Below, in pieces: positions 2,474 through 14,280 of a stretch of 20,929 bases of DNA. Positions within the stretch are counted from its first letter, which is position 1. Every line of letters starts with the position of its first letter. The position numbers and the translations under genes were made by a program. The notes under the pieces are model-generated. The model worked only from the letters and a program-made list of their open reading frames with translations. It was not told where the DNA came from and did no database searches. The stretch is from a virus, in IMG/VR virus record IMGVR_UViG_3300050821_003615, positions 1 through 20,929 of that record, one strand, 5' to 3'.

Positions 2474-3499
2474 ATGGCAACCAGCGGCCAGTACACCTTC
2501 AGCGTCACGCGCGACACGATCATCCGCAACGCGATGCTGAACATCGGAAAGCTCGGCGACACGGAAACCCCGACGCCGACCGAGACGTCCGACTGCTCGA
2601 ACTTCCTGAACATGATGGTGCGACAGTGGATGGGCCGCCAGGACTTCGCGCCGGGCTTGAAGATGTGGAGCCGCTACCGCGGCGACCTCCTCCTCTCGTC
2701 CACCAAGGGGATCTACACCCTCTCCCCGACGGGCGACAACTGGGCGGCGGCGGTGGCCTTGCCGCTCAACCCGAACGAGCCGAACCTGAACGAGACCACG
2801 CTGACCGCGGCTGCCGCCATCAACGCGACCGCACTCTTCGTGAGCCTCGCGGCGGCGGCCGGCTTCTCGGTGAACGACTTCGTCGTGGTGCAGCTCACGA
2901 CCGGGGACATCTTCTCGACGACCTGCTCGGCGGTGAACCTGGGCACCGGCCAGATCACGATCCCCGCGACCGGACTCACCGCCGCGGCCGCGTCCGGGGC
3001 GATCATCTGGAACTACACGACCAAGGGCCAGCCGCTCCTTGAGATCAACTCCGCGATCCTGCGCGACTCCCAGGACAACGACACGCCGCTGAACTACATG
3101 ACGCTGCAGGAGTACGAGGCGCTGCCGACGAAGGTCCAGCCGGGATACGTGTCCGACCCCCAGGCGATCTACCACGAGCCGCAGCTCATCGGCGCCACCG
3201 GCCTGCGCTCCTCCACGCTCTACCTCGATGTGGCGGGTGCCCAGGACGTCACGAAACAGATCCACATCGTCGGGTTCCGCCCGCTGCAGTCGTTCGTGAA
3301 TCCGCTCGACAACGCGGACTTCCCGGAAGACTGGGAGCTGCCGCTCTCGCTCGGCCTCTCGCGCCTGATCTGCCCGATGTTCGAGGCGGTGTGGACGAAG
3401 GAGATGGACTCGAACCTCACGATGGCGCTCGCGATTGCGCGCGAGACGACCCCGGAGACCTCCGTCGCTTACTTCCAGTGCCACGCGGACGACCCTTGA
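2474..3499 (+). CDS. gp4-like head-completion / tail accessory protein
   Basis: This 341-aa protein opens with a helical region (TRDTIIRNAMLNIGKLGD at 12-29, then FLNMMVRQWMGR) followed by a beta strand set (DLLLSSTKGIYTLSP). That pattern is seen in long relatives of P22 gp4, the ring that sits under the portal and holds packaged DNA in. P22 gp4 itself is about half this length; the extra middle (about 90-200), rich in Ala, Thr and small beta strands, looks like an inserted Ig- or beta-type domain. The assignment leans on position: the next gene is clearly gp10-like, as in P22. A four-base overlap couples the two. Start ATG2474 lies three bases after the previous stop. Confidence 0.62.
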   Translation: MATSGQYTFSVTRDTIIRNAMLNIGKLGDTETPTPTETSDCSNFLNMMVRQWMGRQDFAPGLKMWSRYRGDLLLSSTKGIYTLSPTGDNWAAAVALPLNPNEPNLNETTLTAAAAINATALFVSLAAAAGFSVNDFVVVQLTTGDIFSTTCSAVNLGTGQITIPATGLTAAAASGAIIWNYTTKGQPLLEINSAILRDSQDNDTPLNYMTLQEYEALPTKVQPGYVSDPQAIYHEPQLIGATGLRSSTLYLDVAGAQDVTKQIHIVGFRPLQSFVNPLDNADFPEDWELPLSLGLSRLICPMFEAVWTKEMDSNLTMALAIARETTPETSVAYFQCHADDP

Positions 3500-4938
3500 A
3501 AGTCAACGCAATCTTCGGGGCGGGTGTTGCCGGGAAAAGCTACGTGGTCACACGGCAGCGGCGCCTGAACTGCTACTACGAGAACCGCGATGACAAGGAC
3601 AAGTCCCCGATCGCGGTCTACGGGACGCCCGGCATGGCGCTCGCGGGCGCGATCGGCACGAACGTCGGCGCCTCGGTGCGCGGGATGATCGGCAACCCTA
3701 ACAACCTCTTCGCGGTGGTGGGCGGGATCTTCTACCAGCTGAACCCGAACCTCTCGACCTTCTACAGCCTCCCCATCGGCACGAACTTCGGCCTCGTCAC
3801 ACTCGCCACCAACACCAACAACGTGCAGGTCGCGCTGGTGGACGGCACGAGCGGCTACATCTTCACCGCCGGCGCTCTGGTGCCGATCGTCTCGGCCGGC
3901 TTCCCGAACGGGGCGAAGACCATCACCTTCGCGGCCGGGTTCTTCGTGGCGGAGAAGCCGAACTCCCAGCAGTTCCAGGTGTCGGCCGCCTTTGACGGCA
4001 CGACCTGGAACCCGCTCGCTTTCGCCTCCGCATCGCAGTACTCGGACTTCCTCCTGGCGGTCGACAACCTGGTGGGAAACCTCCTCCTCTTTTGCGGCAC
4101 GCACCTTGAGTTTTGGCAGAACGTCGGCACGACCCCGCAGCCGTACGCGCCGATCCTCTCGGCCACGGTCGAGTACGGGATCGCGGCGATCTTCTCGCGC
4201 GTGCACGTGGACAACTCGATCATCTTCCTCGCCCGCTCCCAGCAAGGCGGAGTGAAGGTGTGCCGGATCATGGGGTACCAGGTGACGCCCATCTCCACCC
4301 CGGATCTTGAGGCAATTTTCGCCACCTTCCCCACGGTCGCCGACTGTGTCGGGCTCTCCTACGACACCGACAAGCACCCTATGGCGCAGCTCACGTTCCC
4401 GAGCGCGAACCGCTCGTTCCTCTACGACTGCTCGACCGGGATCTGGAGCGAGACGCAGACTGGGCTCACGCAGAACTACGCCGCGCGCCACCTCGGCAAC
4501 CTCTCGACCTTCTTCGGTGGCAAGCAATACATCGCCGACTCGACGTCCAACAATCTCTACGTCCCGAGCGCAACCCAGTTCACCGACAACGGTGCGGTCA
4601 TCAAGCGCGAGATCATCACGCGCCACCAGCTGAAGGACTTCAACCTGTTCAGCATCGGGGAGCTGTACGTCGACATTGAGACCGGGGTCGGGCTCACCTC
4701 CGGCCAGGGCTCGAACCCGGTCGTCGGGATGGAGTGCTCGAAGGACAACGGCCGGACCTGGCTCACCCAGCGCACGAAGACGATCGGGATGCAGGGCCAG
4801 TACAACTCCTCCGGCCAGCGCCTGCACTTCAACCGCTGGGGGTCCTCGCGCGTGTTCACCTTTCGCCTCTGCATGACGGATCCGGTGAAGTTCGCGCTCA
4901 CCGCCGGGGCGACCAGCGAAGGCGTGCGCGCGCAGTGA
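3496..4938 (+). CDS. gp10-like packaged-DNA stabilization (tail hub) protein
   Basis: The protein matches the P22 gp10 'phage stabilisation' family, the tail hub that plugs the connector beneath gp4. A TTG at 3496 overlapping the previous stop as TTGA gives 480 aa, close to the 472 aa of P22 gp10; an upstream ATG at 3391 would add residues buried in the gp4-like gene. The start motif is KVNAIFGAGVAGKSYVVTRQ, followed by many short WD-like beta strands typical of the family (RGMIGNPNNLFAVVGG; DNLVGNLLLFCGTHLEFWQN; DNSIIFLARSQQGG; FLYDCSTGIWSETQTG). No clear Shine-Dalgarno is seen, so translation is probably coupled to the preceding gene. Confidence 0.82.
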   Translation: MKVNAIFGAGVAGKSYVVTRQRRLNCYYENRDDKDKSPIAVYGTPGMALAGAIGTNVGASVRGMIGNPNNLFAVVGGIFYQLNPNLSTFYSLPIGTNFGLVTLATNTNNVQVALVDGTSGYIFTAGALVPIVSAGFPNGAKTITFAAGFFVAEKPNSQQFQVSAAFDGTTWNPLAFASASQYSDFLLAVDNLVGNLLLFCGTHLEFWQNVGTTPQPYAPILSATVEYGIAAIFSRVHVDNSIIFLARSQQGGVKVCRIMGYQVTPISTPDLEAIFATFPTVADCVGLSYDTDKHPMAQLTFPSANRSFLYDCSTGIWSETQTGLTQNYAARHLGNLSTFFGGKQYIADSTSNNLYVPSATQFTDNGAVIKREIITRHQLKDFNLFSIGELYVDIETGVGLTSGQGSNPVVGMECSKDNGRTWLTQRTKTIGMQGQYNSSGQRLHFNRWGSSRVFTFRLCMTDPVKFALTAGATSEGVRAQ

Positions 4939-6463: not shown

Positions 6464-6703
6464 ATGGGTATCGCAAAAGCAGTGATCGAGGTGGATCTGG
6501 CAGAGCTGACGGCAATCCAGCAAGGCCTCGCCGCGCTCAAGGTCTCGGCGGACATGACCGCGCAGGCGATCGAGCGGCAACTGACCGAGCAGCTCGCGAA
6601 CGCGCAGCGCCAGGCGGCCGTCGAGGCGCGGAAGAAACGCAAGGTCGCGCGCGCGAACTCGCACGCGAGCCCGGAGCCGGCTGCCGGTGGTGCGCCATCG
6701 TGA
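6464..6703 (+). CDS. Small coiled-coil protein, function unknown
   Basis: A 79-aa protein predicted to be a single long helix (AELTAIQQGLAALKVSADMT and AIERQLTEQLANAQRQAA), followed by a basic patch (KKRKVARA) and a Pro/Gly/Ala tail. A clear GAGGAGG Shine-Dalgarno lies seven bases before ATG6464, stronger than that of most neighbours, so separate initiation is likely. It overlaps the cupin-SET gene by four bases (GTGA). The basic tail could bind nucleic acid or be a protein-modification target, but there is no family match; the position among tail genes suggests a minor virion or assembly protein. Confidence 0.7.
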   Translation: MGIAKAVIEVDLAELTAIQQGLAALKVSADMTAQAIERQLTEQLANAQRQAAVEARKKRKVARANSHASPEPAAGGAPS

Positions 6704-7542
6704 ACGAGCTCGCCACACTCGCGCACCTCCCGGTCGAGGAGCTTGAGCGGGAGATGCTAAAACTCCCGCAGGCGCCGTGCGGCGTGCGTCATCACTTCAT
6801 CGCCGGGCTCTACATCCGCGAGGTGACGATCGCGGCGGACACGTACGCGATCGGACACCGGCACAAGGTCCCGCACGTGAATATCCTGCAAAAGGGGCGC
6901 GTGGCGATGGTGGGACCTGACGGGCGCACGATCGAACTCACCGCGCCGACGATGTATATCGGCCAGGCGGGCCGCAAGGTCGGCTACATCCGGGAAGACA
7001 TGACCTGGTTCAACATCTTCCCGACCGAGGAGACGGATGTTACGAAGCTTGAGGCGCTGCTCTTCGAGAAGAGCGAGGCGTTCGAGCAGGCGGCCGCCGC
7101 GCTCCTGCCGAGCGCGGAGCCGGATCGGCTGATCGGGTACAACCGCGAGGACTACAAGGACTTCATCGCGCAGGCCTTCCCCGGCAAGACCGAGCGGCAA
7201 GTGCGCGCAACCTTCGGCGGGGACGATGATGTGATCCAGTTTCCGCGCGGCACGTACAAGGTGAAGGTCGCCCCCTCGCACATCCACGGCCAGGGGGTGA
7301 TCGCGACCCACGACATCGCGGCCGGGGAGACGATCTGTGCGGCGAAGATCGGGGAGAACCGCACGCCGGCCGGGCGTTTTACCAATCACGCCCGCGACCC
7401 GAACGCGCGTATGCTTCGCCAGGCGCAAGTCGTGATGCTGGTCGCACTGCGTGCCATCAAGGGGGCACACGGCGGGATGGACGGTGAGGAGGTGACCGTC
7501 AACTACCGCCAGGCCATAGCGGAGGCTGCGAAGGACTCATGA
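6700..7542 (+). CDS. Cupin-SET fusion protein (putative lysine methyltransferase)
   Basis: A GTG start overlaps the previous stop. Residues about 30-110 form a cupin-like barrel: HHFIAGLYIREVTI, then GHRHKVPHVNILQKGRV (52-68) with His53, His55 and His59 as possible metal ligands. The second cupin motif (QAGRKVGYIREDMTWFNIFP) lacks its histidine. After a helical linker, residues about 184-271 form a minimal SET domain: IHGQGVIATHDIAAGETI (195-212), RFTNHARDPNA (226-236, the NHSxxPN SAM-binding motif) and GEEVTVNYR (262-270) with Tyr269 as the expected catalytic tyrosine. SET enzymes methylate lysines in proteins. No pre-SET or post-SET cysteines are present. It lies between fibre and ejection genes, so a virion or host protein could be the substrate; that is inference. 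Confidence 0.77.
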   Translation: MNELATLAHLPVEELEREMLKLPQAPCGVRHHFIAGLYIREVTIAADTYAIGHRHKVPHVNILQKGRVAMVGPDGRTIELTAPTMYIGQAGRKVGYIREDMTWFNIFPTEETDVTKLEALLFEKSEAFEQAAAALLPSAEPDRLIGYNREDYKDFIAQAFPGKTERQVRATFGGDDDVIQFPRGTYKVKVAPSHIHGQGVIATHDIAAGETICAAKIGENRTPAGRFTNHARDPNARMLRQAQVVMLVALRAIKGAHGGMDGEEVTVNYRQAIAEAAKDS

Positions 7543-8309
7543 GCGCGATTGCGACGGCGATTGTGGGTGGGGCGATCATCGCAGGCGCCGGGTCTGCGAT
7601 CGCCGGGCACGAGGCGGCGGGCGCGACGACCGCAGCAGCGAACACGGCCGCAGGCGTGCAGCAGCAGGCGCTCGCCCAGCAGCTCGCGCTCGCCACGCCC
7701 TACACGAACCTGGGCCAGTCGGCGATCCCGACGTACCAGGCGCTCTTGGGGATCGGCGGCGGTGGTGCCCCAGGTGGAGCGGGCCGCGGCACCCGTCCGA
7801 CCGCGGGCGCACCGGGTGCAGGCGGGCCGGGCGGCAGCATCGAGCAGACGCTACAAAACCTGCCCGGCTACCAGTTCCAACTCACCCAAGGGGTGGATGC
7901 GGCGAAGGCGGCGGCCGCCTCCGAAGGCCTCGGACTGTCCGGCAACGCGATCCAGGGCATCGAGACCTTCGGCTCCGGGCTCGCCGACTCGAACTACCAG
8001 CAGTACCTGCAGGACCTGCTCGCGCCGATCCAGATCGGCCAAGGCGCAGCCGCGGGCCAGGCCGCCAACATCCAGACCGGCGCCTCGAATCTCGGCAACA
8101 TCGCCATCGGCCGCGGCAATGCGATGGCGGGGATCGACGCGAACGAGACCGCGGGCCTCACGCGCGCGGCCGGCAACGCGGGCCAGCAGGCGCTCACCTA
8201 CCAGACGCTGCAGAACCTGAACCCGAACTCCGGCGCGCCGGCCGGGTGGGGCGTGGGCGGGCAGACCGGGGACTTGAACTACGGCCAGCAAGTGGCGGCG
8301 GGGTTCTAA
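7539..8309 (+). CDS. gp7-like DNA ejection protein
   Basis: This 256-aa protein resembles the smaller ejection proteins of P22-type podoviruses, which leave the virion with the DNA and help form the channel across the cell envelope. It opens with a hydrophobic glycine/alanine segment (AIVGGAIIAGAGSAIAG), then an Ala/Gln-rich helix, a Gly/Pro-rich linker (about 75-100), and the recognisable core LPGYQFQLTQGVDAAKAAAA, followed by GLGLSGNAIQGIETFGSGLA and a Tyr/Gln-rich helix. The order gp7, gp20, gp16 in P22 matches this gene and the next two. ATG7539 overlaps the upstream stop as ATGA. The assignment rests on the core motif and gene order. Confidence 0.7.
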   Translation: MSAIATAIVGGAIIAGAGSAIAGHEAAGATTAAANTAAGVQQQALAQQLALATPYTNLGQSAIPTYQALLGIGGGGAPGGAGRGTRPTAGAPGAGGPGGSIEQTLQNLPGYQFQLTQGVDAAKAAAASEGLGLSGNAIQGIETFGSGLADSNYQQYLQDLLAPIQIGQGAAAGQAANIQTGASNLGNIAIGRGNAMAGIDANETAGLTRAAGNAGQQALTYQTLQNLNPNSGAPAGWGVGGQTGDLNYGQQVAAGF

Positions 8310-8310
8310 C

Positions 8311-9744
8311 ATGGCCGGCTTTGACCCTTCAGTGATTGGCGACATCGGCGGCTACGGCCCGAACCCGGTCAAGGCGCAGGCGGACGCGCTGAACTTGGCG
8401 GGCGGGATGCAGACCTACCAGTCCGGTCAACTTGACCTCGCAAAACAGCAGCAGGCGCAAAAAGACGAGGCGCAGGCGCGCAAGCTCCTTCAGGGCGTGG
8501 ACCTCAACACGCCCGAGGGCCAGGCGAAGCTCACGCAACTGCCACCGGAGCTGCGCATGAAGATGATGCAGGGGGTCGCTAAGACCCAGTCCGCGCAGAA
8601 GGAGGTGACGCTCCAGGACATGGACATCGCTATGCGCAAGCTCGACATCCTGGAGTCCGTGCAGGACCCGATCGTCGCGCAGTTGGAGACGATCAAGAAC
8701 CAGCCGGGGATGACCCCGGCGATGCTCGACGCGAAGACGAAGCAACTCATCGTGCCGGCGATCCTGCAACTCCAGAAGGACCACCCGGAACTGCAGCCGG
8801 AGATCCAGCGCTTCCTCGCCGATCCGAACCACATGACCTACAACGGGCTGATCGCGGTCGATCAGCAGACCGCGACCGGGCGTCAGGCGCTCGCGAGCCG
8901 CCGCGCCGAGCGGCACCAGGAGGAGGTCGAGCGCGAGAATCGCAAGAAAGACGACCTCGCAGAGCGCCGGGTGGCGGACGCCGAGAAGAAGGACGCGGAC
9001 CGCAAGCGCGAGGCCCAGGAGGGCATCATCTCCGACGACTCCGCGCAGCTTGCGGTCGATCGCATCATCAACGGGGAGCAGGCGCGCGATGTGCTCGCGA
9101 ACTTCGGGCGCGGCAAGCAAGGCCCGGGGAACATCGCGAAGGTGCAGAACCTGCTCGCGAAGACCGCGAAGGAGCGCTTCGGGGACAAGGCGCCCGCGGA
9201 GATCAGCGCGCGCATGATCGAGATGAAGGGCTTGGCGAAGGAGCAGCAGACCGAGGCCACGATCGCCGGCAAGATCGCGTACGCGGAGAAGGAGATCGGG
9301 CAGATCGGGCCGAAGGTGCTGGAGTCCGCGCAGGCGATGGACCGCGGCTCGTTCGTCCCGTGGAACCGCCTGAAGCAATACACCGAGGCGCAGACCTCGG
9401 ACCCGAAGCTGAAGCGGCTCAAGGCCTACCTCACCACGTTGTCCAACTCGTACGACGTCTTGGGCGGGCGCGGCGGCACGGATGTGGAGAAGCGCGCGCA
9501 CAACCGCGAGCTCCTGGACTCCGCCGACAGCTTCGAGACGCTCAAGGTCGCAGTGGATGCGATCACGAACGAGGCGAGCCTCTCGCACACGGCCGCGCGC
9601 GAGTCGATGACCGTCGACCGCGATCGGTTCAATCCGGGCACCACACCAGCGGCTGGCGCAGGCGGGGGTCCTCCTCCTTCCCCTGCTGCCGCGCCCGCCG
9701 CTGGTGGCGGGGCAGGCTGGGGCAAGGCGACCGTGGTGCAGTGA
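8311..9744 (+). CDS. gp20-like DNA ejection protein
   Basis: A 477-aa, largely helical protein in the middle position of the ejection trio. Residues about 35-75 are Gln/Lys/Ala-rich helix (LDLAKQQQAQKDEAQARKLL); about 190-250 is a long highly charged coiled coil (RRAERHQEEVERENRKKDDL). The C-terminal 40 residues are low-complexity Pro/Ala/Gly (TPAAGAGGGPPPSPAAAP) ending GWGKATVVQ, and the following gene's product ends with a similar GSVVQ-type tail, hinting at a shared packaging or docking tag. No enzymatic motif is visible. The start ATG8311 comes one base after the previous stop. Role inferred from order and composition; sequence identity to P22 gp20 is not obvious. Confidence 0.6.
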   Translation: MAGFDPSVIGDIGGYGPNPVKAQADALNLAGGMQTYQSGQLDLAKQQQAQKDEAQARKLLQGVDLNTPEGQAKLTQLPPELRMKMMQGVAKTQSAQKEVTLQDMDIAMRKLDILESVQDPIVAQLETIKNQPGMTPAMLDAKTKQLIVPAILQLQKDHPELQPEIQRFLADPNHMTYNGLIAVDQQTATGRQALASRRAERHQEEVERENRKKDDLAERRVADAEKKDADRKREAQEGIISDDSAQLAVDRIINGEQARDVLANFGRGKQGPGNIAKVQNLLAKTAKERFGDKAPAEISARMIEMKGLAKEQQTEATIAGKIAYAEKEIGQIGPKVLESAQAMDRGSFVPWNRLKQYTEAQTSDPKLKRLKAYLTTLSNSYDVLGGRGGTDVEKRAHNRELLDSADSFETLKVAVDAITNEASLSHTAARESMTVDRDRFNPGTTPAAGAGGGPPPSPAAAPAAGGGAGWGKATVVQ

Positions 9745-9745
9745 G

Positions 9746-11827
9746 ATGCCGACCTACGAGATTCAGGCCCCGGACGGCAATAAGTACCGGATCGAGGGCC
9801 CCGCCGGCGCAACTGACGACCAGGTACGCGCCCAGGTGCTCCAGCAGCACCCCCAGGCCGGCACGGCCAAGGCGGCAGCGCCGAAGCCGGACAGCGCACT
9901 CAAGACGGTCGGCAAGGAGGCGCTCGGCGGGCTTGAGGCAGCCGCCAGCACCGCGACCGGCATCGCCGGGGGACTTGGTGGCGGGCTCACCTACCTCGGC
10001 ACCCTGGCCGCCTCCGGCGGCGACACCGAGGCGGCCAAGGCTGTCCAGGAGGACACCCAAAAGGCCCTGACCTACCAGCCGAAGACGCAAGCGGGAAAGG
10101 CGGACGTCGCGGCGGTTGGGAACATCGCGACCGCCGCGATCGAGCGCCCGACGGAGGCCGCCGGGGACATCGCGCGCCGCGGGGTCCAAGCGGTCGGAGG
10201 ATCCCCGGAAGCGGCCGGGGTGGCCGGCTCGTTCGTCAAGACGGGCCTGCAGGCCCTCCCGTACGTCGCAGGTTATCGCGGGGCGGGCGCCGCCGCGCGC
10301 GGGGCGGAAACCGCGGCAGGGGCCGCAGAGACAGCAGGGGAGGCCGCAGCACGTGCACACGTCACTCGCACCACTTCTCTGGATTGGAACAGCGTACCTC
10401 CTGCTATCAAGAGGACCTTGTCCCGGATGGCTGCGCGCGGAGAAGACCTGGGACGCCTGGATCCGAAGGCGCTTGAGCGGGTCGCGCGCGCCCAGTCGCT
10501 GGACGTCCCGGTTCCAATCACTCGAGGTCAAGCTACCCGGGACCTGGCGAATATCACTGAGGAGGAGCAGCTGCGTCGGTCAAACGTCGGGGGCCCGCTA
10601 CGCGCCAAAATGTCGGAACAGGACACGGCCCTACATCGAAATTTAGCCGCCGTGCGGGAGCAGGTCGCGCCGGGCTCGAAGGTCACGAGCTCCGCCGACG
10701 CGGGCCTCCCCGTGCAGACGGCCGCGCGCCGCAAGCTCCAGGTGATGAAGGGCCAGTCGACGCGCCTGTACGAAGAGGCGCGCAAGGCCGGCGACCTCGA
10801 GGCGCCCGTCTCGACCGATCCGATCATGACGTGGCTGCAGGACCCGGCGAACAAGGCGAACGCCGGGTGGGTCGAGCAACGCCTGCGCGCGTACGATGCG
10901 CACCCGGGCGGCAAGCCGCAGCCGGGGCAGCCAACGACCGCGCCGATCCTCACGATCAACAACCTCGAGCGCGTGCGCCAGGAGCTGAACGCCGCCACGC
11001 AAGAGGGCGGGACGAAGGGCCATTACGCGGGGCAGGCGAAGGGGGTGCTCGACCAGCTCCTCGACAACTCCGGCGGAGATGCCTACAAGAAGGCGCGCGC
11101 GTCCTGGCGGGAGTGGAACCAGGAGTTCGGCCGGCAGCGCGCGATCCGCGACCTCACGCGCGAGAAGGCGGGGCTCACCGACCGGCGCATCGCGCTTGAG
11201 GGCACGACCGACTACGTGCTGAAGTCCTCGCGCGAGTCGCTGGAGGAGATCAAGGCCACCCTCACCAAGGGCGGCACGGAGAAGACGCGCGCGCGCGGCG
11301 AGAAGGCCTGGCGGGATCTGCAGGCCGGCGTCGTGCAGAAGCTGCGTGAGGAGGCGGCCGGCAAGCGCGCGATCAGGAACGAGGCGGACGCGGAGCAGTT
11401 CAACGCCTCCTTCCTCGATCGGTTCCACGAGCTCGACCGCTCCGGCAAGCTCGAGGTGCTCTTCGGGGACAAGGCAGCGGCGAAGCTGCGAAAGTTCGCC
11501 GACACGGTCCACGACGTGCGCACCACCCCGGCGGACCGCGTGGCCGGCCCGAACACCGCGACGCGCCTCGCGGCGCTGATGGAGACCTTCGCGCACTCCA
11601 CCGGCCTCTCGTTCGTCGCACGCGGGGTGCGCAAGGTCGGGGAGAAGATCCACGAGGGCGTGCGGGAAGAAGAACTCGCCCGCAACCCGCTCGAGGACGC
11701 AGCCGCAACGGGGGCACGGGCGGACCGCGCGGAGGCGCGCGGCGCGCGCGCTGGTAGGTTGACGCGCACGCTCAAGGAGCGCTATGGCGCGGGCAGCGTG
11801 GTGCAGTCTACCCAGGACCAGCAGTGA
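9746..11827 (+). CDS. gp16-like large DNA ejection protein
   Basis: ATG9746, one base after the previous stop, gives 693 aa; an earlier in-frame ATG lies inside the upstream gene. The N-terminal ~35 residues (YEIQAPDGNKYRIEGPAGAT, then DDQVRAQVLQQHP) form a small beta-alpha domain with the GPxGATxxQ motif recurrent in phage virion proteins. Two glycine/alanine-rich hydrophobic zones follow (about 50-85 and 155-195), compatible with membrane insertion, then a long charged helical region to the end. This suits the largest P22-type ejection protein (gp16), which acts in the cytoplasmic membrane. No lytic transglycosylase motif was found. It overlaps the ATP-grasp gene as GTGA. Confidence 0.62.
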   Translation: MPTYEIQAPDGNKYRIEGPAGATDDQVRAQVLQQHPQAGTAKAAAPKPDSALKTVGKEALGGLEAAASTATGIAGGLGGGLTYLGTLAASGGDTEAAKAVQEDTQKALTYQPKTQAGKADVAAVGNIATAAIERPTEAAGDIARRGVQAVGGSPEAAGVAGSFVKTGLQALPYVAGYRGAGAAARGAETAAGAAETAGEAAARAHVTRTTSLDWNSVPPAIKRTLSRMAARGEDLGRLDPKALERVARAQSLDVPVPITRGQATRDLANITEEEQLRRSNVGGPLRAKMSEQDTALHRNLAAVREQVAPGSKVTSSADAGLPVQTAARRKLQVMKGQSTRLYEEARKAGDLEAPVSTDPIMTWLQDPANKANAGWVEQRLRAYDAHPGGKPQPGQPTTAPILTINNLERVRQELNAATQEGGTKGHYAGQAKGVLDQLLDNSGGDAYKKARASWREWNQEFGRQRAIRDLTREKAGLTDRRIALEGTTDYVLKSSRESLEEIKATLTKGGTEKTRARGEKAWRDLQAGVVQKLREEAAGKRAIRNEADAEQFNASFLDRFHELDRSGKLEVLFGDKAAAKLRKFADTVHDVRTTPADRVAGPNTATRLAALMETFAHSTGLSFVARGVRKVGEKIHEGVREEELARNPLEDAAATGARADRAEARGARAGRLTRTLKERYGAGSVVQSTQDQQ

Positions 11828-13140
11828 AGGTCCTGGTCATCGAGCACGAGGACGCTGGGTGCGGACTCGCCTTCTGTCTGCGCTGCATCCGCGCCGGCCA
11901 CCAGGTGCGCTACTACGCCGGTAAGGGCTCGCGCGTCGGGGAAGGGTTCCCGGGCCTGCAGCGGATCGACAACTGGGTGTCGGCGTTGCGGTGGGCGGAC
12001 CTCGTGTGGTGCACCGGCAACCACGAGTTCCTGCCGAAGCTCGACTACGCCAAGTCCCAGGGCGTGTGCGTGTTCGCCCCGTCCGTGCAGTCCGCCCAGC
12101 TTGAGATCAAGCGCGCGAAGGGGATGAAGTTCTTCGAGGATCACGACATATCGGTGCCGGATTACCACCAGTTCGCGAGTCTAAAGGAGGCGGAGCTGTT
12201 CCAGCGCAAGACCGACGCGCGCTTCGTGTTCAAGACCCTCGGAGACGAGGAGGACAAGTCCTTGTCCTACGTCGGCAAGACTCCGGCCGACATGGTCGCG
12301 CGCCTGCAGCGCTGGCAGCGCCTCGGCATGAACCCGAAGGGCCCGGTGATGCTGCAGGCGTGCATCGAAGGCCTGGAGCTCGGCGTGTCGCGCTGGATGG
12401 GCGCGGACGGGTTCGTGGGTCCCTACAACGAGAACTTCGAGCACAAGAAGCTGCTCTCCGGCAACTGCGGCCCGAACTGCGGGGAAGCCGGCACGGTGCA
12501 GAAGTACACCACCGACTCCTCACTCGGGGAGATGGTGCTCGCCCCGCTTGAGGCCGCGCTGGTCAAGCTCGGGCACCTGGGCGACATCGACGTGAACTGC
12601 ATCATCGATGAGGCGGGGAAGCCGTGGCCGTTGGAGTTCACGTGCCGCCCCGGCTGGCCGGCCTACAACATCATGATGGCGACGCACCAGGGCGACCCGG
12701 CCGAGTGGATGCTCGATGCGTGCAAGGGCAAGGACACGCTCAAGGTGACGACGGCGATCGCGGCCGGGGTGGTGGTCGCGCAGCCGGACTACCCGTACTC
12801 GGAGAAGACGAAGGCGGAGACACTGGACATCCCGATCTACGGCGTGAGCGACAAGAACCGCCGGTTCGTGGCGCCCCAGTCGGTGAAGATGGCAACGCTC
12901 CCGCAGATGGTCGAGGGCAAGGTGAAGGACGAGCCGATGTGGGCGACCTGCGGGGACTACATTGCGGTGGTGACCGGGGTCGGAAAGTCTGTTAAACAGG
13001 CGTGCGAGCGAGCCTACCGGGTAGTGAAGGACCTCTCCGTTCCCAACATGATCTACCGCGACGACATCGGCGAGAAGCTCGAGGCGGAACTGCCCAAGCT
13101 CCAGGCGCACGGGTTCGCGGAGGAGTTTACCTATGGGTGA
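11824..13140 (+). CDS. PurD-like ATP-grasp ligase
   Basis: The 438-aa product follows the whole domain order of phosphoribosylamine-glycine ligase (PurD/GARS): N-domain MKVLVIEHEDAGCGLAFCLR, then FAPSVQSAQLEIKRAKGMKF (84-103), the ATP-grasp part with FVFKTLGDEEDK (134-145), QACIEGLELGVSRWMGADGF (178-197), EHKKLLSGNCGPNCGEAGTV (206-225), DVNCIIDEAGKPWPLEFTCR (256-275), and the C-domain ACERAYRVV plus YRDDIGEKLE. PurD joins glycine to phosphoribosylamine. Here the N-terminal GGREHAL-type motif is replaced and the metal-site 'EFNCR' reads EFTCR, so the substrate may differ. GTG start overlaps the ejection gene's stop. A purine-pathway auxiliary enzyme or an unrelated amide ligase are both possible. 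Confidence 0.78.
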   Translation: MKVLVIEHEDAGCGLAFCLRCIRAGHQVRYYAGKGSRVGEGFPGLQRIDNWVSALRWADLVWCTGNHEFLPKLDYAKSQGVCVFAPSVQSAQLEIKRAKGMKFFEDHDISVPDYHQFASLKEAELFQRKTDARFVFKTLGDEEDKSLSYVGKTPADMVARLQRWQRLGMNPKGPVMLQACIEGLELGVSRWMGADGFVGPYNENFEHKKLLSGNCGPNCGEAGTVQKYTTDSSLGEMVLAPLEAALVKLGHLGDIDVNCIIDEAGKPWPLEFTCRPGWPAYNIMMATHQGDPAEWMLDACKGKDTLKVTTAIAAGVVVAQPDYPYSEKTKAETLDIPIYGVSDKNRRFVAPQSVKMATLPQMVEGKVKDEPMWATCGDYIAVVTGVGKSVKQACERAYRVVKDLSVPNMIYRDDIGEKLEAELPKLQAHGFAEEFTYG

Positions 13141-13143
13141 CGC

Positions 13144-14280
13144 ATGGCCGGCTTGATGTCGCCGATCACCCTGATCACGCAGATCCTCTCGGATCAGGGC
13201 ATCGTCGGCGCGGGCTTTAAGATCAACACCTACGTCGCAGGCTCGGTCTCGACCCCGCAGAACACCTGGACCGACTCGACCCTCACGGTGTTGAACTCCA
13301 ACCCGATCATCCTCGGGAGCAACGGGCGCTTCCAGAACGTGGCGGTGTGGGCGCCAGCCGGGACCGTGATCAAGATGGTGATCCAGGACGCGAACAACAA
13401 CGTGATCGCGGGCCTGACGATCGACAACATCCCGCTGCTGAACGACCTGACCGCGGTCGCAGGCGGCACCCCGATCACCCTCTTCGGCGGCACGGACACG
13501 GGCGCGGTCAACGCCTACATCCTCAACTTCACCGCGCCCTTCTTCACCGCGTACGCCAACGGCATCACGATCTTCTGGATCCCCGCGAACACCAACACCG
13601 GTGCCGCCACGGTCAACGTGAACGGCCTGGGCGTGCGCAACATCGTGAACGTCGACGGCTCGGCGCTCCTGGCCGGGCAGATCCAGGCGAACCAGCCGAC
13701 GGAGATGATCTTCTTCGGCGGCCAGTGGGTGCTGATCAACACCGGGCTCTACACCGGTCCCCTGACCGTCGGCGGCGCGACGACTCTCAACGGCCTCCTC
13801 AACGCCCTCGGCAACATCCAGCTCGGCGCGGCCGGCAAGACGCTTCAGGAGTGGTCACAGACCGCCGCCGCGCTGGTCGACGCCTCGATGGACTCGGGCA
13901 CGTTTGTCGGGACCCTAGGAGGGGTGACCGGCACGATCACGGGCACTGTGGGGTTCGAGCGCGTCGGTCGGATCATCGTGCTCTTCGCCGATGCGACTAT
14001 CGCCGGCGCGAGTAACAGCACCAACTTGACGCTGTCCGGATTGCCGGCGAGCCTGCAGCCGACGAACGGGGCGCTGATGACCACCCTCACCCCGTCGCTC
14101 ATCGACAACACCGTCAACGGGATCCTCGGCACGACGCAACCGAACGCGGGCAGCAACTTCGTCACCTTTGCGAAGTCCTCGGCCGCCTTCCCCATCCAGT
14201 TCAATCAGAACGGCTTCACCAACGGCGGGACCAAGGGCATCCTCGGCGGGTGGGAGATGCTCTACTGCCTGAAGGGGTGA
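13144..14280 (+). CDS. Tail fibre-like / receptor-binding protein
   Basis: A 378-aa beta-rich protein. The N-terminal ~95 residues (GAGFKINTYVAGSVSTPQNT, WTDSTLTVLNSNPIILGSNG, VWAPAGTVIKMVIQDA) form a common podophage fibre anchoring domain. Residues about 105-200 hold the fibre-type repeat NTGAATVNVNGLGVRNIVNV and QPTEMIFFGGQWVLINTGLY. A triple-strand-like segment PLTVGGATTLNGLLNALGNI follows, then a C-terminal beta domain (about 240-378) ending WEMLYCLKG. Placed after the ejection genes and next to the endolysin, like the tailspike position in P22, though no spike enzyme motif is seen. Start ATG13144 is three bases past the previous stop; a second Met five codons on is possible. Confidence 0.72.
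   Translation: MAGLMSPITLITQILSDQGIVGAGFKINTYVAGSVSTPQNTWTDSTLTVLNSNPIILGSNGRFQNVAVWAPAGTVIKMVIQDANNNVIAGLTIDNIPLLNDLTAVAGGTPITLFGGTDTGAVNAYILNFTAPFFTAYANGITIFWIPANTNTGAATVNVNGLGVRNIVNVDGSALLAGQIQANQPTEMIFFGGQWVLINTGLYTGPLTVGGATTLNGLLNALGNIQLGAAGKTLQEWSQTAAALVDASMDSGTFVGTLGGVTGTITGTVGFERVGRIIVLFADATIAGASNSTNLTLSGLPASLQPTNGALMTTLTPSLIDNTVNGILGTTQPNAGSNFVTFAKSSAAFPIQFNQNGFTNGGTKGILGGWEMLYCLKG

Follow-up and report, generated by a model that had tools for sequence, protein, structure and literature searches.

What does an enzyme that closely resembles PurD do among the virion genes of a virus? The question is raised by a stretch of viral DNA of 20,929 nucleotides (positions 1 to 20,929 of IMG/VR record IMGVR_UViG_3300050821_003615; hereafter, the window), in which an open reading frame (ORF) with a GTG start codon, 11824-13140 on the plus strand, encodes a protein of 438 amino acids (hereafter, the ligase). 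An earlier note on this DNA, made from the sequence alone, described the product as a full-length PurD-like ATP-grasp enzyme and suggested that its substrate had changed. We find that the gene belongs to a widespread viral family and that it is likely to encode an active ATP-grasp ligase that descends from PurD but is not PurD.

The relatedness of the ligase to PurD is far beyond chance. Among solved structures, the best match by sequence is a PurD (5vev, 3.2e-18), and the PurD equivalog model of NCBIfam, TIGR00877, matches at 9.7e-23, with a score of 80.6 bits that falls below its cut-off of 288 bits. Of the Pfam domains of PurD, GARS_C is detected over its cut-off (1.9e-9) and GARS_A under it (1.2e-4), and the ligase matches none of the PHROG families. 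The same pattern extends to the family, for which residues and domains were counted in an alignment of 73 members (A2; the 85 full members minus 12 identical or near-identical ones, with the phage-collection record L020 also excluded) and motifs over 86 full members (excluding the fragments L015, L016, L056 and L061): TIGR00877 and GARS_C each match 73/73, GARS_A 71/73 and GARS_N 1/73. In the structure prediction proposed in the earlier note as a check, the model (from 73 sequences; pLDDT 94.4, pTM 0.92) is confidently predicted to have the PurD fold across its whole length, comprising the N, ATP-grasp and C parts. Foldseek places PurD at ranks 1-15, and in the VIA comparison the top places go to the 13 PurD entries listed (Z 31.5-36.6), the best of them being Aquifex PurD 2yw2 (Z 36.6, 397 residues, rmsd 3.1, ligase residues 1-424). 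PurK, PurT and PylC, which have a related fold, follow at Z 22.6-24.6, that is, 12-14 Z units under the best PurD, with 10-16% identity among the rows listed. The claim that all PurD domains can be aligned thus stands for the predicted fold and falls for the sequence signature of the N domain. Among viral structures in BFVD, the best match has a TMq of only 0.47, and no PurD-like entry appears among the 50 matches listed, although others could exist beyond these.

The departure from PurD shows in the active site. Residues were mapped by profile alignment onto 2yw2, and the 73 members were compared with 17 canonical PurDs (Aquifex numbering in this paragraph). Seven residues, K143, K151, E192, K214, E100, E283 and R287, are kept in 73/73 members, and seven positions are switched in every one: K103 to R, E185 to Q, D212 to E, the second G of TGG to E, N285 to T, D290 to W or H, and E292 to a non-acid (A, I, Y, T, P or L); in an eighth switch, T replaces the A of GGMGA in 72/73. 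At these eight positions, 17/17 canonical PurDs show the PurD residue, except that the A of GGMGA is C in one of them. According to excerpts from PMC8880213, K103, K143, E185, E192 and K214 of PurD contact ATP, and D212, R287 and E292 contact glycine. The comparison of the glycine pocket with that of true PurD, which the earlier note had called for, accordingly gives, as judged from the alignment, two of three contacts changed in every member, with the carboxylate-binding Arg kept.

At the level of motifs, the GREHA loop is absent in 86/86 full members and present in 17/17 canonical PurDs, so that the loss of the GGREHAL-like motif, like the change of EFN to EFT, both of which had been read from the window, is real and family-wide. 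PurD (TIGR00877; 2yw2, 5vev, 1gso) and the family share the whole fold, the ATP-side lysines and glutamates and the Arg, whereas in the family GGMGA becomes GExGT (84/86), D212 becomes E, and EFNxRxGDPE becomes EFTxRxG(W/H)P followed by a non-acid (EFT-type motif in 83/86). The PROSITE pattern PS00184, in the form R[LF]GDPEx[EQIM] quoted in an excerpt from PMC3261824, occurs in 0/86 members; its strict form is found in 11/18 comparison rows (17 PurDs and locus L118), and D290 and E292 are both present in 17/17 canonical PurDs. The marks of the ATP-grasp superfamily are retained, namely, the predicted fold and, in 73/73 members, the residues that correspond to K143, K151 and E283 (K137, K145 and E271 of the ligase). 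We take E283 and N285, by general ATP-grasp convention, to be the metal ligands, and in all 73 members the E-x-N motif is replaced by E-x-T. The E-x-N motif is common in ATP-grasp enzymes but is not kept in all of them, so that its loss does not exclude membership in the superfamily. The rebuilding of both the pocket for the amino group of glycine (D212/E292) and the GREHA loop, with the Arg kept, suggests that the substrates are probably other than glycine and phosphoribosylamine, in line with the change of substrate originally proposed.

The family is not confined to the window. A search of IMG/VR with the single ligase sequence found 18 loci, and a profile scan with a 16-row alignment (A1) gave 460 pattern matches, which contained 443 related stretches, the 80 best of these being retained; the same profile identified 7 loci in bacterial genomes. 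In a phage collection of 50,697 records, 7 matched the ligase: MW202796 (L020) carries a copy with 39% identity and without annotation there, and the other six show 24-27% identity, aligned from residue 73 on, the four annotated ones being named PurD. Among 200 genomes of the phylum of bacterial genome G001, a member score was reached only in G001 itself (681 bits; the next score was 158), and at E <= 1e-25 matches were found in 10/200 genomes from the family to which G004 belongs and in 4/199 from that of G006, one in each set being the phage-type copy. In a maximum likelihood tree of 53 rows, 17 PurDs (100/100) are separated from a single clade that combines 33 phage and 3 cellular rows (100/100). 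The cellular rows come from Halarchaeum (L091), Roseomonas (L092) and Sphingomonas (L118); L091 and L092 are long-branched, and the three may sit inside or beside the phage rows. Selection on the gene is strongly purifying, with dN/dS of 0.009-0.224 in 16/18 pairs tried, the remaining two giving no value.

We used the head closure protein Hc3 as a probe to find relatives whether or not they have the ligase gene: among its 80 nearest relatives, 29 offer at least 8.5 kb of downstream sequence, and the gene is present in 27 of the 29. One relative scored as lacking it, L194, lies on the same contig as L033, with the ligase gene further along. Thus, the gene is widespread and near-fixed in one podovirus lineage and is not a single oddity. 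In most cases it follows the third ejection-type gene and precedes a tail-fibre-type gene. An ejection-type ORF ends within 400 bases upstream in 77/86 loci with at least 300 bases upstream present, the overlap with the upstream ORF being exactly 4 bases in 58 of these 86, and a tail-fibre-type ORF starts within 700 bases downstream in 69/84 loci with at least 1 kb downstream present. The GTGA coupling reported for the window is there in the sequence. The naming of the upstream gene as an ejection-protein gene needs more care: the PHROG 598 match supports such a label for ORF 7539-8309, whereas ORF 9704-11827, with no database family match of its own, is labelled by position and by same-slot relatives, one of which (in L057) belongs to phrog_26400, 'DNA ejection protein'.

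We propose that the ligase would bind ATP-Mg through K137, K145, E185, K208, E94 and E271 (ligase numbering here and below), that a carboxylate held by R275 would be phosphorylated to an acyl phosphate, and that an amine would attack the acyl phosphate to yield an amide. Judging by the position of the gene, the enzyme would be made late, from the particle-gene operon, during virus production; that it is kept by selection as part of this operon is supported. The earlier note favoured ligation of an amino acid to a sugar, base or protein; both the acyl partner and the acceptor in that proposal are conjectural. As to the recipient, a virion protein, either the tail fibre or an ejection protein, is our tentative first guess, somewhat short of an even chance. 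The full picture would be that of a dedicated ligase, nearly fixed in a large and for the most part uncultured lineage of podoviruses, that attaches an acyl group through an amide bond to a protein of the tail fibre or the ejection apparatus, accompanied in the operon by interchangeable genes for a hydroxylase, an acetyltransferase and a SET methyltransferase. This picture is speculative and, taken as a whole, rather doubtful.

Several observations weigh against this reading. T273 stands in place of the Asn with which ATP-grasp enzymes commonly bind the metal, and the ATP site is not identical to that of PurD, two ATP contacts being conservatively changed (K103 to R and E185 to Q in Aquifex numbering). 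In L153, there is no ligase gene in the 10 kb downstream of Hc3, and the ejection-type and tail-fibre-type genes abut, so that the gene is not indispensable. Furthermore, 9/86 loci have no called ejection-type ORF within 400 bases and 15/84 have no tail-fibre ORF within 700 bases; because the neighbours are not strictly linked to the ligase, a virion-protein target is a guess. The former set includes L066 and L083, where the ligase gene follows head-like genes (identified by eye, no family search) and precedes a tail-fibre-type gene; the two group together in the tree (93/93), and this placement may therefore be one event. For context, the corresponding stretch of five P22-like records that are more distant has no ligase gene among its annotations, and these records are absent from the phage-collection protein matches listed.

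The same chemistry could instead act on lipid A, on a sugar of the host surface or on a small molecule, and so serve receptor change or superinfection exclusion or yield a metabolite; we rank such a recipient second and consider it unlikely. It gains some weight from the TylF-type methyltransferase and the methyltransferase joined to a weakly heptosyltransferase-like region that are also encoded in the window, from the proximity of the Roseomonas homologue to glycosyltransferase and PKS genes, and from the PF05118 hydroxylases of sister phages, a family that we take to include also the lipid A hydroxylase LpxO. The stable neighbours of the gene in phages are, however, virion genes, and sugar-type genes are in the minority (cluster c13, in 13 loci). 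That the protein is a retired enzyme with a structural or chaperone-like function would be compatible with a gene placed among virion genes and with the loss of the usual metal ligand at T273, but K137, K145, E94, E185, K208, E271 and R275, unchanged in 73/73 members, would not be needed by a non-catalytic protein, and we regard this possibility as very improbable.

An ordinary PurD that boosts purine synthesis as an auxiliary metabolic gene is the reading that the full-length PurD fold would invite, the more so as purD or GART appears in viral gene sets from snow, vents and the ocean, according to excerpts from PMC11097641, PMC11360552 and PMC12043954. We find it hardly credible given the invariant active-site switches, the missing GREHA loop and the clade apart from PurD. 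The surroundings of the gene speak against it as well and lend indirect support to the earlier view that plain purine synthesis is unlikely: purF (TIGR01134) and the PurN-type domain PF00551 are absent in 16/16 long virus records, which may be incomplete, whereas positive controls were detected, and 6/7 bacterial genomes that carry a ligase copy have a canonical PurD of their own. The seventh, G003, whose assembly may be incomplete, yielded no PurD over the cut-off; the phage-type copy of this Rhodanobacteraceae genome (L086) is its sole GARS_C match.

Because the family matches the PurD model in 73/73 members but is without the signature of PurD, some of the viral 'purD' calls made in metagenome surveys may represent this PurD-derived family. 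Such surveys score viral purD as purine metabolism, and genes of this virion-operon family are better not counted there. The eight residue switches provide a clear, testable set of changes by which the substrate of an ATP-grasp enzyme may shift, and the near-fixed gene adds an enzyme to the virion operon of a large set of poorly known phages. Our search of open-licence PMC papers yielded no recognised description of a PurD-derived family within a virion operon.

Table 1. Features of the window and of related loci discussed in the text (window coordinates unless a locus is named; residues in ligase numbering unless indicated).
Feature	Position	Strand	Basis or remark
Tail-adaptor-type protein, cluster c6	2474..3499	+	relative in L121 annotated 'tail adaptor'
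Head closure Hc3, P22 gp10-like	3391..4938	+	probe for relatives
Cupin + SET-domain protein, phrog_34170	6700..7542	+	in ligase operon
DNA ejection protein, PHROG 598	7539..8309	+	1.2e-21
Second ejection-type protein, cluster c2	8311..9744	+	clustering
Ejection-type protein directly upstream of ligase, cluster c4	9704..11827	+	position and same-slot relatives
PurD-derived ATP-grasp ligase gene	11824..13140	+	ORF, PurD sequence matches and predicted fold
GTGA overlap, ligase start codon on upstream stop	11824..11827	+	read in sequence
N-terminal loop, residues 1-20, in place of PurD GxGGREHA	11824..11883	+	motif absent
R97 (= Aquifex K103, ATP contact)	12112..12114	+	R in 73/73
K137...K145, two ATP-side lysines (= Aquifex K143, K151)	12232..12258	+	kept 73/73
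E206-H-K208 (= PurD D212-H-K214)	12439..12447	+	glycine-binding D to E; ATP-binding K unchanged
G220-E221-x-G-T224 (PurD GGMGA loop to GExGT)	12481..12495	+	alignment
EFTCRPGWP, residues 271-279 (PurD EFNxRxGDP)	12634..12660	+	R275 kept; N285 to T273; D290 to W278
Tail-fibre/tailspike-type protein directly downstream of ligase, cluster c1, phrog_26190	13144..14280	+	family match
SET-type genes beside cellular copies	L118:9166-9585 (-); L228:8057-8461 (-); L229:6596-6982 (+); L230:8453-8854 (-)		

The operons of sister phages carry, in varying combinations, PF05118 hydroxylases, GNAT acetyltransferases (12/21 match PF00583) and cupin-SET proteins. Linkage to any of these as a requirement is ruled out, since the 48 loci with the whole stretch vary: c10 only in 17, c9 with c8 in 13, c8 only in 8, c9 only in 4, c9 with c10 in 2 and none in 4. 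In the stretch from Hc3 to the first ejection gene, genes of the hydroxylase/GNAT kind seldom share a locus with cupin(-SET) genes, hydroxylase and cupin being found together in 2/48 loci. With the second ejection protein (8311-9741) as a probe, we found no match in the phage collection and confirmed none among viral contigs; the alignment of its cluster (A5) was too diverse and was not used for scanning. Inspection by eye of up to 22 rows per cluster revealed no shared C-terminal tag of the RimK or Pup type on neighbouring virion proteins, and a defence role was rejected, the ligase having no PADLOC match.

The closest known systems include, besides PurD, several cellular proteins. Two extra PurD-like proteins of haloarchaea, rrnAC0307 and Hlac_1553, are argued in excerpts from PMC3261824 not to be glycinamide ribonucleotide (GAR) synthetases; they are described as having a diverged P-loop and as missing both GARS_N and the Asp normally conserved in R[LF]GDPEx[EQIM]. 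The hallmarks of what we call here the 'extra PurD' or EFT clade, GExGT, E-x-T-x-R-x-G and a clade apart from PurD, are all found in the ligase family. We liken these two proteins to the family by description only; Halarchaeum L091 has the family switches and belongs to the clade, but is cellular and 30% identical to the window ligase. Further cellular copies come from Acetobacteraceae and Sphingomonadaceae (L092, L118, L207-L215, L217-L219); L092 shares E206, E221, T224, T273 and R275, and the GExGT and EFT motifs occur in both L092 and L118. Phages encode other ATP-grasp ligases, among them those in LUZ24-like gene clusters and the R2K family of jumbo phages, the latter with a proposed protein-modifying role, as far as the excerpted sources describe them; in the LUZ24-like phage UFV-P2, the ATP-grasp gene is listed among early-region genes, a comparison with the window ligase that goes by description only.

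At 4 of the 12 cellular loci inspected (L092, L118, L221-L230), a SET-type gene lies tail to tail with the PurD-like gene, either adjoining its end or overlapping it; by BLAST, these SET proteins have no match to the cupin-SET protein of the window operon. The Sphingomonas plasmid copy (L118:7938-9238) is annotated as two ORFs and is apparently split by a frameshift. In MW202796, a small protein annotated as 'ubiquitin' (L020:6988-7233) has paired cysteines and is not ubiquitin-like by eye, no search having been made. Upstream of the virion genes of the window, the TylF-type methyltransferase is encoded at 154-714, and ORF 728-2470 combines an N-terminal class I methyltransferase with the region weakly like heptosyltransferases; an ORF in L021 (313 amino acids, cut by the locus start) resembles this second part.

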